A DNA stretch of 45,949 bases from Novosphingobium sp. Its GTDB lineage: Bacteria; Pseudomonadota; Alphaproteobacteria; Sphingomonadales; Sphingomonadaceae. Under the pieces are notes generated by a model. That model had not been told where the DNA came from and made no database searches. It saw only the letters and a program-made list of their open reading frames with translations. The stretch is taken from NCBI GenBank assembly GCA_017987575.1, contig JAGNTK010000006.1, positions 1-45,949 on the forward strand, written 5' to 3'. Shown here piece by piece: positions 34,660-38,222 of this stretch. The number at the start of each line of letters is the position of its first letter. Position 1 is the stretch's first letter. The position numbers were made by a program, and so were the translations under genes.

Positions 34660-34734
34660 GCGGGCGTAGCTCAGGGGTAGAGCACAACCTTGCCAAGGTT
34701 GGGGTCGAGGGTTCGAATCCCTTCGCCCGCTCCA
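34660..34734 (+). tRNA. tRNA-Gly (GCC)
   Basis: The acceptor arms GCGGGCG and CGCCCGC pair perfectly. The D arm is GCTC-AGGGGTA-GAGC. The anticodon arm is CAACC-TTGCCAA-GGTTG with anticodon GCC. The T arm is GAGGG-TTCGAAT-CCCTT. The discriminator T and encoded CCA end at 34734. A transposon is inserted six bases beyond the CCA; its 8-bp target duplication includes the last two bases of the tRNA gene, which stays intact. Confidence 0.98.
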
Positions 34735-34740
34735 GTTTTC
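34733..34740 (+). repeat. 8-bp target site duplication, left copy
   Basis: CAGTTTTC directly precedes the left terminal inverted repeat and recurs at 38215-38222 directly after the right one. Removing the element and one copy rebuilds a continuous tRNA-Gly downstream sequence. Confidence 0.95.
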
Positions 34741-34767
34741 CGGTATTAGGTAGCAAACGCACCAAGC
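34741..34767 (+). repeat. left terminal inverted repeat of the transposon
   Basis: 27 bp starting CGGTATTAGGTAGCAAACGC, identical to the reverse complement of 38188-38214. Confidence 0.95.
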
Positions 34768-34797
34768 GCTTTTGCGCGGATTTCCTACATTGTCGGC

Positions 34798-35277
34798 ATG
34801 GGAATCTCGAACCTTCGCCTAGGCCTTGAAAACCTCCACGCCACGCTGCGTGGCGAAATCAAGCAGGCTGAAAAGGACCTGAAAGGCTACCAGACGGCGG
34901 TTGATCGCCTCGAAGAGCTACATTGGCATCGGGTTCAACTTAATGAGGTCCTTTCCGCTGTCACCAAGGTCCTAATGCACGGGGACCCGGATTGGACGCC
35001 CACACTGGTGGCTCCCCGGCCCAAGCGGAAATGGACCAGCCTGTTCAAGCCCGGCGATCGTGGACGGATCGCTCTCACCATCCTTCGCGAGCATGGTGAC
35101 TGGATGCGTCCGCTCGATGTCGCCTCCATCATGCTCGATCAGATTGAACATGATCCGGAGGACAGAGTGGAGCGAACCCGGCTCGCCAACTCGCTCGGCA
35201 ATTACCTCAAAAGCCATGAAGGTGATCTCGTCGAATCACGCGGCGACTATGCCAAGGAATGGCGGGTGATTCGCTGA
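34798..35277 (+). CDS. transposon passenger: predicted coiled-coil plus winged-helix-like protein
   Basis: 159 residues, not recognised. Residues about 5-55 (ENLHATLRGEIKQAEKDLKGYQTAVDRLEELHWHRV) look like a coiled coil. A Pro-rich linker (TPTLVAPRPKRKW) follows. Residues about 85-159 (RGRIALTILREHGDWMRPLDVASIMLDQ, then RTRLANSLGNYLKSHEGDLVESRGDYAKEWRVI) have the spacing of a winged-helix domain with a terminal wing strand. A DNA-binding or regulatory role is plausible but unproven. It begins 31 bp inside the left end of the element, so its promoter would overlap the terminal repeat. Confidence 0.75.
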   Translation: MGISNLRLGLENLHATLRGEIKQAEKDLKGYQTAVDRLEELHWHRVQLNEVLSAVTKVLMHGDPDWTPTLVAPRPKRKWTSLFKPGDRGRIALTILREHGDWMRPLDVASIMLDQIEHDPEDRVERTRLANSLGNYLKSHEGDLVESRGDYAKEWRVIR

Positions 35278-35423
35278 TTGTGGAATTTGGCCCGAATCTT
35301 ATCGCTGAAAATGCGGCGGAGGCCCCTTGGAGACCCGCTGCCAATTGCCGAAACTTAATGCTGAAAAGGAGATGTTGACCGAGGGTATTTTCATGCACTC
35401 TTACGTCGCTTCAACAACTTACG

Positions 35424-36404
35424 TTGGAGCAGACGACGCAACACTTTCTTCTCTCGGCACAGGCGAGAGCGCTCAGCACGAAGCGCATTCATCGCCTATC
35501 GGATGACGCGGCTTTCGCTGAGTTTGTCGCCATCCGCTTTGCCGAGAACGATGGTGAGCCGTTCTGTCCGTGGTGCGGTCACAAGGAGGTCTACACTATC
35601 TCAACGCGGCGGACATGGAAGTGCGCTTCGAAGGTCTGCCGGCGGAATTTCTCAGCAACCTCGCGCACCATCTTCGCCAGTCGGAAGCTCCCCTACCGTG
35701 AACTGCTGCTGCTCGCTGCCCATTTCGTCAATGCGGCGAAGGGGCTCAGTGCCATCCGCATGAGCCAAGAACTTGAGGTGACCTACAAGACCGCTTTCGT
35801 GTGGAAGCATAAGCTCCGCGAAGCCATCACGACCAGCCAGCACTCGGGAACGCTTCGCGGCAAAGTCGAGATCGATGGCGCATACTTCGGCGGCCACATC
35901 CGCCCGCGCAACAACCGTCCGCTCCGTCAGGATCGCCGACGCATCACTCGCCGCGCCAGCAAGCGCCAATGTGTGACCATCTTCCGTGAACGCAACGGGC
36001 GCAGCCGGGCATTCGCGATGGACGAGCATGAGGCCGCCCGGATCGTCGAGCAGATCGTCGAACCGGGCAGCGAAATCTTCACGGATCAGGCCACCCATTT
36101 CGGACGCATCGCCGCTCGCTACGTTCTCAGGACCGTCAATCACAGCGAACGCTACGCGGACGGCGACATCTCGACCAATTGGGCCGAGTCCTATTTCTCA
36201 CGGCTGCGGCGCGCCGAGCTTGGGACGCATCACCACATCGCCGGACCCTATCTGATGGGTTACGCCAACGAGAGTTCGTGGCGAGAGGATCGGCGGCGCT
36301 ACACTAATGAGGAAAACTACGACCAACTCCTCAACCTTACGACGCACCACCCGGTGTCGCGCCAGTGGAAGGGTTACTGGCAGCGCCGGAAGGAAGCCGC
36401 GTAA
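35424..36404 (+). CDS. IS1595 family transposase
   Basis: About 326 residues. An N-terminal zinc ribbon, CPWCGHKEVYTISTRRTWKC and CRRNFSATS, is followed by a helical region LSAIRMSQELEVTYKTAFVWKHKLREAI. The catalytic domain has the first Asp in KVEIDGAYFGG, the second in SEIFTDQATHFG and the Glu in NWAESYFSRLRR, with Arg five positions after the Glu. This matches DDE-type members of IS1595. The first possible start is a TTG at 35424; no ATG in this frame lies before the zinc ribbon, so the true start is uncertain. It appears full length and active. Confidence 0.93.
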   Translation: MEQTTQHFLLSAQARALSTKRIHRLSDDAAFAEFVAIRFAENDGEPFCPWCGHKEVYTISTRRTWKCASKVCRRNFSATSRTIFASRKLPYRELLLLAAHFVNAAKGLSAIRMSQELEVTYKTAFVWKHKLREAITTSQHSGTLRGKVEIDGAYFGGHIRPRNNRPLRQDRRRITRRASKRQCVTIFRERNGRSRAFAMDEHEAARIVEQIVEPGSEIFTDQATHFGRIAARYVLRTVNHSERYADGDISTNWAESYFSRLRRAELGTHHHIAGPYLMGYANESSWREDRRRYTNEENYDQLLNLTTHHPVSRQWKGYWQRRKEAA

Positions 36405-36607
36405 TGGCAACCTTCCGCGTCTGTCTGATCGGCCAGCACCAACCGCTTGAGATTGATCTACCATTCAGCAACCTTGGCGATGTTGGCGTGGAATCGACAC
36501 GCGCCAAGTTCTTGATCGGCCACATGACGAAGCCGGACGAGGATGGTGTCTGCCGGGGCGTGTTGATCTCGACCGGGCGCATCCAGTGCGTGTTCGAAGC
36601 AGATTAG
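36404..36607 (+). CDS. small passenger ORF coupled to the transposase
   Basis: 67 residues (MATFRVCLIGQHQPLEIDLPF to GRIQCVFEAD), probably an all-beta small domain. The ATG overlaps the transposase stop TAA by one base (TAATG), which suggests translational coupling and a role tied to transposition or simple co-expression. No family is recognised. The 3' end overlaps the next, convergent gene by 4 bp. Confidence 0.65.
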   Translation: MATFRVCLIGQHQPLEIDLPFSNLGDVGVESTRAKFLIGHMTKPDEDGVCRGVLISTGRIQCVFEAD

Positions 36608-36966
36608 AAGGCGCGTTCTTTGCGATCCACCTGACATTGGCCTTGGCTGACCGGTGGCAAACCCGACAATTGCGCAAGCCTGCCGTCATTCCGCCTCCGG
36701 ATGACAAGGTTCGATCGATCAATCGAAAACGTGCCGAACGTAACTTCGTTTGGGGTGAAGATAGCAGCCGTGCGGAATGTGTCGCCATTGGCGAATGCGT
36801 AACTCGCCGTGCTGCCTTGCTCGTTCAGTTGGACGCTCATTTGCAGGGTCTTACCGGGTCCGTTGGGCATCTCGCACTTGAGAAACACAGGTGCAGCGCT
36901 TGCAGCGCTAGGCATTGCAATTCCGGCAAGCACGGCACTCGCGGCAAGATATTTCCAAGGACTCAT
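36604..36966 (-). CDS. transposon passenger: small exported protein
   Basis: 120 residues. A clear signal peptide, MSPWKYLAASAVLAGIAMPSAASAA, precedes a compact beta-rich domain with two Cys (FLKCEMPNGPG and QGQCQVDRKE) that could form a disulfide. It is not recognised. It is the only passenger on the minus strand that is well supported, and it diverges from the XRE gene. An exported passenger is unusual cargo. GGGAA lies before the ATG. Confidence 0.75.
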   Translation of the reverse strand: MSPWKYLAASAVLAGIAMPSAASAAPVFLKCEMPNGPGKTLQMSVQLNEQGSTASYAFANGDTFRTAAIFTPNEVTFGTFSIDRSNLVIRRRNDGRLAQLSGLPPVSQGQCQVDRKERAF

Positions 36967-37069
36967 TGGCGTTTCCCATGTGGCTCATCTGATCGATATA
37001 GCGCTCAAAGGTTAACAGCGGGCATCATACTCCGTGGACCGATAGTCACCCAATCAGTGACTTGGGCGC

Positions 37070-37309
37070 GTGGACCCCTATCTCGACATCCTCGGCCGAC
37101 GCATACACCAGCGGCGCAAGGAGCTTGGCCTATCGCAGGAAGGGCTGGCGCACGAGGCGGGGCTCGATCGCAGCTACGTGGGTCGGATCGAGAGGGGCGA
37201 ACACAACCTGACTTTCATCGCGTTGGTGAAGCTGGCTCGGGCGATGAAATGCGATGTGGCGGCGTTGACTTCTGGATTGCCGGCACTTGGCACAGAGGCA
37301 CGATCTTGA
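37070..37309 (+). CDS. XRE family helix-turn-helix regulator (transposon passenger)
   Basis: 79 residues. A single HTH_3 domain covers nearly the whole protein: LGRRIHQRRKELGLSQEGLAHEAGLDRSYVGRIERGEHNLTFIALVKLARAMKCDVAALT. The recognition helix is around RSYVGRIERG. The start is a GTG at 37070. Such small XRE proteins often control their own element or restriction-modification genes (C proteins). Its TGA stop lies within the -35 hexamer of the promoter for the next gene. Confidence 0.9.
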   Translation: MDPYLDILGRRIHQRRKELGLSQEGLAHEAGLDRSYVGRIERGEHNLTFIALVKLARAMKCDVAALTSGLPALGTEARS

Positions 37310-37334
37310 CATTTCAACGGAAATGGGTTATGTT
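37306..37334 (+). promoter_or_regulatory. sigma70-type promoter inside the transposon
   Basis: TTGACA (37306-37311), 17 bases, then TATGTT (37329-37334). It stands about 98 bp before the GTG of the gene at 37432. The -35 box contains the stop codon of the XRE gene, so this promoter would be in easy reach of XRE autoregulation. Confidence 0.55.
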
Positions 37335-37431
37335 CGCGACATCGAAGTGATCGCGGGTTCGTGATCATATAGTCGCTGCGTCCGGAGGATGCTCAAGGCG
37401 ACATTCCCTAAATATGTAGAAAGGACCGACC

Positions 37432-37680
37432 GTGACGGATCGGGTCATTACGCCGCTTGTCAGCGAGCGTTTGAAGCGCAGATTTCGTGAACTCGGCGTC
37501 GCTTACATTGGCGGAGCCGAGGAGATGACCGATACCGAGCTTAACGAAGCGGCTGCCAAGCTGCATGAATGGGCGGATAGGCGTCTTGTTGAAGGCGCAC
37601 CCCTGTATCCTCCCAACGTATGCGTAAAATGCTTGCATCCTCACCTTCCGCTGGAACACGGAGGGGGATGTAAGCTTTGA
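37432..37680 (+). CDS. transposon passenger: small protein with C-terminal Cys/His cluster
   Basis: 82 residues, unrecognised. A helical part (VSERLKRRFRELGVAYIGGAEEMTDTELNEAAAKLHEWADRRL) is followed by CVKCLHPHLPLEHGGGC, with Cys64, Cys67, His69, His71, His76 and Cys80, which could bind zinc. The start is a GTG at 37432 preceded by AAAGGA. A sigma70-like promoter is present upstream. Its 3' 140 bp overlap a weaker ORF on the other strand. Confidence 0.7.
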   Translation: MTDRVITPLVSERLKRRFRELGVAYIGGAEEMTDTELNEAAAKLHEWADRRLVEGAPLYPPNVCVKCLHPHLPLEHGGGCKL

Positions 37681-37966
37681 TGCAGGCATCTCGCCAAGTC
37701 ATGACTTCGGCAAAGACATAGAGTTGATTGTCTGCTGTTTTATACAGATTCCCTGAGCAGAGCCCGTTTTCGAATCTGCCAAGGTCATAAGATGCACCTT
37801 CGTTCAACCACGGACCCTGAGAAGGAAATGGTATCACAAGAGTGGCGTAACCGGGGAGCGGAGTGTTCATCACCTCGCGTATAGCTACAAGATCGAAAGC
37901 ATCAACGGGACAAGAGGAACAAAATGCGCGCAGGTCGGGTAATTTTCGCTTCACGAAATTTGGCAA
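37541..37966 (-). CDS. possible ORF overlapping both small passenger genes
   Basis: 141 residues, the only substantial frame covering 37681-37923. Its middle (PGYATLVIPFPSQGPWLNEGASYDLGRFENGLCSG, QLYVFAEVMTWRDACI) looks protein-like. Both its ends overlap genes on the opposite strand, which argues against it. A later start, MNTPLPGYATL, would remove the overlap at the 5' end. Not recognised; it may be spurious. Confidence 0.35.
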   Translation of the reverse strand: MPNFVKRKLPDLRAFCSSCPVDAFDLVAIREVMNTPLPGYATLVIPFPSQGPWLNEGASYDLGRFENGLCSGNLYKTADNQLYVFAEVMTWRDACIKAYIPLRVPAEGEDASILRIRWEDTGVRLQQDAYPPIHAAWQPLR

Positions 37967-38175
37967 TGCTGGTTGTTCAGCACGACCAAGGCTTCACCGT
38001 AGTAGAAATGCTCGGCGGTGAAGGTCGGATCGTTGTTGGAGATCAAGTGCATGGTGATTGGCTCGCTGTCGCTGGAGAACCAATTCGACAGGGTGAGGAG
38101 GTTTACGACGCATTTTTCCAAGGATGCTGGCCTAGTTCTGATGCGGCCATCCGCATTGCGCGAGGTGATCGTTAG
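37924..38175 (+). CDS. small passenger protein at the right end of the transposon
   Basis: 83 residues (MRAGRVIFASRNLAMLVVQHDQGFTVVEMLGGEGRIVVGDQVHGDWLAVAGEPI), beta-rich, like a small barrel, ending DAAIRIARGDR. Not recognised by name. The stop is 12 bp before the right terminal inverted repeat. It starts at the ATG at 37924, with no strong Shine-Dalgarno. Confidence 0.6.
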   Translation: MRAGRVIFASRNLAMLVVQHDQGFTVVEMLGGEGRIVVGDQVHGDWLAVAGEPIRQGEEVYDAFFQGCWPSSDAAIRIARGDR

Positions 38176-38187
38176 AGCCGATCGTCT

Positions 38188-38214
38188 GCTTGGTGCGTTT
38201 GCTACCTAATACCG
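38188..38214 (-). repeat. right terminal inverted repeat of the transposon
   Basis: 27 bp, perfect reverse complement of 34741-34767, ending at the duplication CAGTTTTC. Confidence 0.95.
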
Positions 38215-38222
38215 CAGTTTTC
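38215..38222 (+). repeat. 8-bp target site duplication, right copy
   Basis: CAGTTTTC, identical to 34733-34740. Confidence 0.95.

Follow-up and report, generated by a model that had tools for sequence, protein, structure and literature searches.

A winged-helix protein as putative target selector of an IS1595-family transposon located at tRNA 3′ ends

The window analysed here is a 45,949-bp stretch of Novosphingobium sp. (assembly GCA_017987575.1, contig JAGNTK010000006.1, positions 1 to 45,949, forward strand). It carries a transposon of the IS1595 family, inserted at the 3′ end of a tRNA-Gly gene. In addition to a DDE transposase, the element encodes a small protein close to one end, designated c1. 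Judged from sequence comparison with related elements, c1 is very probably the swappable target selector of a site-selective IS1595-family transposon. The tRNA position, which an earlier note on this DNA had treated as a curiosity, is the main point.

Target sites and c1 among related elements

Relatives were collected by transposase searches, with hits in 39 of 397 family genomes at 1e-40 and in 13 of 385 genomes of the class at 1e-80. A later search matched 32 of 396 genomes at 1e-60, and a genome-collection search kept 80 of 156 candidates. Of the 39 family genomes, 37 had a single match; the two matches in G129 are pieces of a single broken gene, and those in G381 are two copies. Flanks were fetched for part of the matches of the 39-genome search. 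After duplicate removal, 125 loci were obtained. Paired ends were found in 100 of them, and three pairs (L147, L153, and L156) were left out as false or weak. The 97 full elements measure 2938 to 7610 bp, and a c1 homologue, end-proximal, is present in all 97. L154, whose c1 lies 2397 bp inside, was left out of the c1 trees, and L080 (located in comM), L146, L148, and L149 were left out as transposase duplicates. Transposase relatives were also found in 226 plasmid records, all below 60% identity, and none of these records has c1 at E 0.01.

Insertion sites were grouped by translated alignment of the empty sites, with duplications at the same place within 8 bases, and target genes were named from NCBIfam and Pfam scans of the flank pieces. 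Nine site groups were obtained, which hold 62 of the 97 elements. Two groups lie in comM (LFLDELPE^F, n=17; ILPPL motif, n=15), two at nearby sites of an NfrB-like glycosyltransferase (n=7 and n=4), and two in a second glycosyltransferase (GGTSNH^F, n=6; LDAID^YP, n=3). The LDAID^YP flank piece gave no family match in these scans and was assigned by reading, because the joined frame also holds the GGTSNHF motif. The remaining groups are tRNA-Gln (n=5), tRNA-Arg (n=3), and the mnmE stop codon (n=2; L050:8305-8380 and the right flank of L060), where the duplication covers the last codon and the stop. Tyrosine-integrase islands use the mnmE 3′ end as well. L086, L126, L157, and L195 have related c1 proteins and share one insertion motif, GGAATGAC, within a short repetitive extragenic palindromic (REP)-like repeat, which is probably another target class.

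Target counts were made with 67 labelled elements and eight target labels. The window element, L033, L053, L084, and L120 were labelled by hand from their flanks, and L150 was excluded from GT_GGTSNHF because its flanks differ. Some tests used a 68-label set, in which one label (L150) is wrong. The labels change 8 times on the c1 tree (minimum possible 7) and 25 times on the transposase tree; with shuffled labels, the c1 tree gave a mean of 42.6 changes and never so few in 200 shuffles (68-label set). The nearest neighbour by c1 shares the target in 64 of 67 elements, and that by c2 in 28 of 63.

The target might instead be read by the transposase, with c1 as a correlated cofactor or regulator. 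Mutator-like transposases carry a target preference in their own sequence (PMC3942029, in excerpt), and the nearest neighbour by transposase shares the target in 41 of 67 elements. However, this explanation is improbable in view of the 25 changes on the transposase tree against 8 on that of c1 and of the discordant cases, of which 24 go with c1 and one with the transposase (p 1.5e-6); after thinning of near copies, the cases stand at 30 to 0 and 27 to 0 for c1. The transposases of L165 and L166 are 95% identical, yet their c1 proteins are 34% identical and their targets are a glycosyltransferase and comM, respectively. Likewise, L163 and L164 have transposases of 93% identity, c1 proteins of 35% identity, and again different targets (identity pairs, 68-label set). 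L131 combines a transposase of another clade with a tRNA-type c1 and is located at tRNA-Gln. At the level of sequence, c1 is shown to have moved between transposase backbones, with the target changing along.

It is less probable still that recombination swaps c1 among elements already resident at the same site, c1 thereby tracking the site without choosing it. c1 does lie next to an element end, near the shared flank. However, the end DNA outside c1 is closer to the flank and does not track the target: the nearest neighbour by 57 bp of end DNA shares the target in 27 of 65 cases on the c1 side and in 16 of 65 on the other side (68-label set). Furthermore, in some tRNA elements c1 is on the side of the tRNA and in others on the opposite side, and exchange of c1 leaves first insertions recurring at one base unexplained.

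Target choice by c1 was also compared with an out-of-sample set of 17 new stretches. Two were already in the set and two had no c1, leaving 13. In nine of these, c1 shares at least 50% identity with a known c1; the other four are too distant for prediction. Seven of the nine new loci are at the expected site. L187 and L197 are at tRNA ends; L189, L191, and L193 are at comM site 1; L196 is at comM site 2, its duplications differing at one position; and L195 is at the GGAATGAC repeat that L086 and L157 also occupy. The c1 nearest to that of L191 belongs to the off-target element L152, and the next two are of the comM site 1 type.

The c1 of the window (34798..35277, + strand; 159 residues) was identified as proposed target selector from its homologues, an AlphaFold2 model, and target tracking. 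The model shows a long helix followed by a winged helix, with a predicted local distance difference test (pLDDT) score of 93.7. No match to it was found in Pfam, NCBIfam, or PHROGs. In a curated-family scan of 54 c1 members, HARE-HTH was the commonest Pfam match (8 members, best E 0.0063), and the TnsD, TniQ, and TnsF families gave no match to c1 in such scans. Otherwise, only general winged-helix matches were obtained; a sequence search of the PDB placed coiled coils on top (best E 0.0004), and Foldseek returned nothing at E 0.001 or better.

The window element and tRNA 3′ ends

The transposon proper occupies 34741-38214 (3474 bp). Its arms, at 34741..34767 (left, + strand) and 38188..38214 (right, - strand), are perfect 27-bp terminal inverted repeats, 100% complementary by arm comparison. 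They are flanked by exact copies of the 8-bp target duplication CAGTTTTC, at 34733..34740 and 38215..38222. The tRNA-Gly(gcc) gene lies at 34660..34734 (+ strand; ARAGORN), and its encoded CCA is intact. The left copy of CAGTTTTC begins at the CA of this CCA, overlapping the last 2 bases of the tRNA, and the tRNA gene is left whole. The repeats, the duplication, the length, and the insertion at the CCA end were thus given correctly, to the base, in the earlier note.

The transposase gene (35424..36404, + strand; 326 residues from the listed TTG start, although the true start may differ) was assigned by Pfam, NCBIfam, and alignment. The protein matches PF12762 (DDE_Tnp_IS1595; 134.6 bits, cut-off 27) and NF033547 (IS1595; 148.2 bits, cut-off 75), and its N-terminal zinc ribbon matches PF12760 (39.9 bits, cut-off 25.4). 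D151, D221, E255, and R260 are unchanged in 14 aligned relatives, in agreement with the full-length DDE transposase with E-x4-R reported before. No tyrosine or serine integrase was found by Pfam or NCBIfam among nine reading frames of the element, a count that includes two versions of one open reading frame (ORF). With DDE domain, zinc ribbon, terminal inverted repeats, and 8-bp duplication all present, the element is supported as an IS1595-family DDE transposon and not an integrase island, as the earlier note had argued. The perfect ends fit a young, possibly active element. The name ISNha5, given to its group in the earlier note, is taken here as an assumption.

Of the window-type c1 elements with a visible site, all 14 adjoin a tRNA 3′ end: 12 at intact tRNA genes of seven isoacceptors and 2 at tRNA 3′ fragments. 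Among the 97 elements plus L033 and L053, each of which has one visible end only, the overlap between duplication and tRNA 3′ end is exactly 2 bases in 11 elements and 1 base in L053. L187, fetched later, has the same placement at a tRNA-Pro. Without L053, the twelve tRNAs are Gly-gcc, Ser-cga, Arg-tct (two), Arg-acg, Gln-ctg (five), Gln-ttg, and Pro-cgg. The tRNA can face either element end, and both orientations were seen. L034 is cut off by the end of its contig; the 8 bp that can be seen are CACTTTCC on the other strand, also starting with CA. A genome typically has about 50 tRNA genes per 3 Mb; on this assumption, the chance of one such tRNA-end insertion is about 1 in 60,000. The tRNA ends are a target and not an accident.

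The two fragment sites belong to L032 and L197, both with tRNA-type c1, and are 3′ fragments of tRNA-Arg and tRNA-Gln, respectively. The flank of L032 is an 18-nt fragment whose bases also end an intact tRNA-Arg of that genome. Rfam found no tRNA at this flank, which the fragment explains. The other side of L197 has no matching duplication. A third such case is L051 (4838-4859), an element with another c1-unknown type that adjoins an 18-nt tRNA-like 3′ fragment. The question is raised whether L032, L197, and L051 may be using attachment (att) remnants of integrated elements. In L156 (4570-7966), the right end adjoins tRNA-Gln, and on the left lie an 8-bp spacer and an apparent second element end, as if the two stood back to back. 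Chance insertion beside a tRNA, or an integrase element misread as a transposon, is very hard to credit: the window alone cannot separate chance from targeting, and the 3′ tRNA fragments beside L032 and L197 resemble those that integrases leave, but twelve insertions at the same base across seven tRNA types, together with inverted repeats, 8-bp duplications, and the absence of integrase from the scanned frames, stand against it.

The earlier note had also called for further copies and for an empty site. Ends of the same kind were found in the 96 other full elements, with different 8-bp duplications. For the window, the right flank was unmatched in 40 other related genomes; an empty site was obtained for the relative L187, whose flanks, when joined, match two other genomes of the genus across the junction. 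The window assembly (223 contigs, 82.62% complete) contains 1 copy of the element. A second IS1595-type transposase in this assembly (G000:C22:62553-63431, L002) is distant, with 30% identity and 1 internal stop.

Within the passenger sequence described earlier, 34798-35277 encodes c1, the proposed selector. A small ORF (36404..36607, + strand), whose ATG overlaps the transposase stop, has homologues in L032, L034, L035, L038, L042, and L046. It is followed by a 120-residue cargo ORF (36604..36966, - strand) without a homologue among the compared elements and by a 79-residue HTH_3 (XRE-type) regulator assigned by Pfam (37070..37309, + strand), 79-81% identical to the copies in L032, L042, and L046. 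Two further cargo ORFs encode 82 residues (37432..37680, + strand; 65% identity in L038) and 83 residues (37924..38175, + strand). In the cargo of the tRNA-targeted relative L042, 8150-9385 matches the candidate phage-defence model PDC-M32A (E 3.5e-121).

Copies away from the class sites and the proposed mechanism

Several observations weigh against target choice by c1. Seven chromosomal elements with a class-like c1 lie off site (L168, L078, L150, L144, L152, L103, and L074), and L168, L152, and L144 come from genomes with an intact comM. Among the new loci, L198, whose transposase has two stops, is off site and L203 is ambiguous. L167, L041, and L053 have a nearest c1 with a different label, and L053 is located at tRNA-Gln though its c1 is of another clade. 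On viral contigs, where 62 loci include 25 with paired ends and 14 of these have a labelled nearest c1, none of the 14 is at a class site; three of them have a c1 91-95% identical to the comM type. Finally, both halves of c1 track the target about equally (68-label set), with neither recognizable as the target reader.

The idea that off-target copies occur only where the target is occupied was ruled out for L168, L152, and L144 by their intact comM. In the genome of L078, comM is split, with the copy L080 located there. The viral contigs were chosen as phage-like and therefore say little about chromosomal choice; their copies show that insertion without a class target happens. L235, a viral-contig locus without paired ends and outside the 14, has the same tRNA-Gln fragment flank as L197. 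Full elements with clean 8-bp duplications were seen inside phage-like contigs among L236-L296, and such contigs are a likely vehicle of spread for these elements.

In the proposed mechanism, every full relative has two parts, the DDE transposase and c1. The transposase would act at the CGG...TTA ends and leave the 8-bp duplication; ends and duplication are observed, and the chemistry is taken from the family. c1 would bind the chosen target and bring the transposase there. For the window c1 clade, the target is the tRNA 3′ end: the duplication starts at the CA of CCA whichever way the element points, and the tRNA is kept whole. The selector may read the final ~18-25 bp of this gene. On account of the off-class insertions on viral contigs, we infer a second, unselective route, likened to that of Tn7, which may serve the copies on phage-like contigs and some chromosomal copies. 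On balance, we favour a widespread IS1595 branch with a plug-in winged-helix selector and at least 8 site classes, counting tRNA 3′ ends, two comM sites, the mnmE stop codon, the sites of two glycosyltransferases, and REP-like repeats. With an unselective phage-boarding route in addition, this branch would have reached independently, with a single transposase, a two-pathway lifestyle like that of Tn7.

Comparison with known systems and implications

Tyrosine-integrase elements use tRNA 3′ and mnmE 3′ ends and keep the host gene whole. They depend on att recombination, whereas the window element has inverted repeats and a target duplication. Casposons and eukaryotic Dada transposons resemble the window element in site-specific insertion at tRNA genes. 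However, casposons have a Cas1-type integrase and no c1. Tn7-like transposons resemble the proposal made here in that a separate modular selector (TnsD/TniQ, TnsF) steers insertion to a conserved gene; they use TnsA/B/C, whereas here a single IS1595 transposase is accompanied by a c1 of ~150 residues, unmatched to TnsD/TniQ/TnsF in the family scans.

In the accessible part of PMC10293859, the TnsF selector, the comM Walker B target, and the tRNA targets of CRISPR-associated transposons (CASTs) are described; according to an excerpt of PMC4046053, casposons insert at sites that share 4-7 nt with tRNA 3′ ends, and the gene stays whole. Mutator-like TnGBS and ISLre2 are likewise DDE transposons that insert at a defined place, upstream of sigmaA promoters. 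Their specificity is tied to a transposase motif (both points from part of PMC3942029), whereas here it would be tied to a separate protein. As in the IS1595 family, of which PMC8101967 and PMC5704250 were available in part, the window element has zinc-ribbon and DDE domains and 8-bp duplications; the present elements differ from the family in the end-proximal protein of every full element and in their fixed targets. Among the papers found, titles and abstract openings gave no tRNA or comM targeting and no target selector for IS1595, and an earlier notice in subscription journals or ISfinder is possible. The available portions of PMC7031236 and PMC11736806 do not link IS1595 to comM insertion.

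A division of labour between transposase and selector already exists in the larger Tn7 elements. Should c1 be what picks the site, a minimal DDE transposon would have its target choice in a separable module of ~150 residues, naturally swapped many times. Transposase steering could then be tested with only two proteins and one pair of ends, and nature would supply a panel of selectors of known targets. These elements would be a further lineage converging on the comM Walker B site, tRNA ends, and mnmE as landing sites. Single-copy alphaproteobacterial insertion sequences with passenger genes would become predictable site-specific islands, at least one of which, L042, carries a candidate defence gene as cargo.

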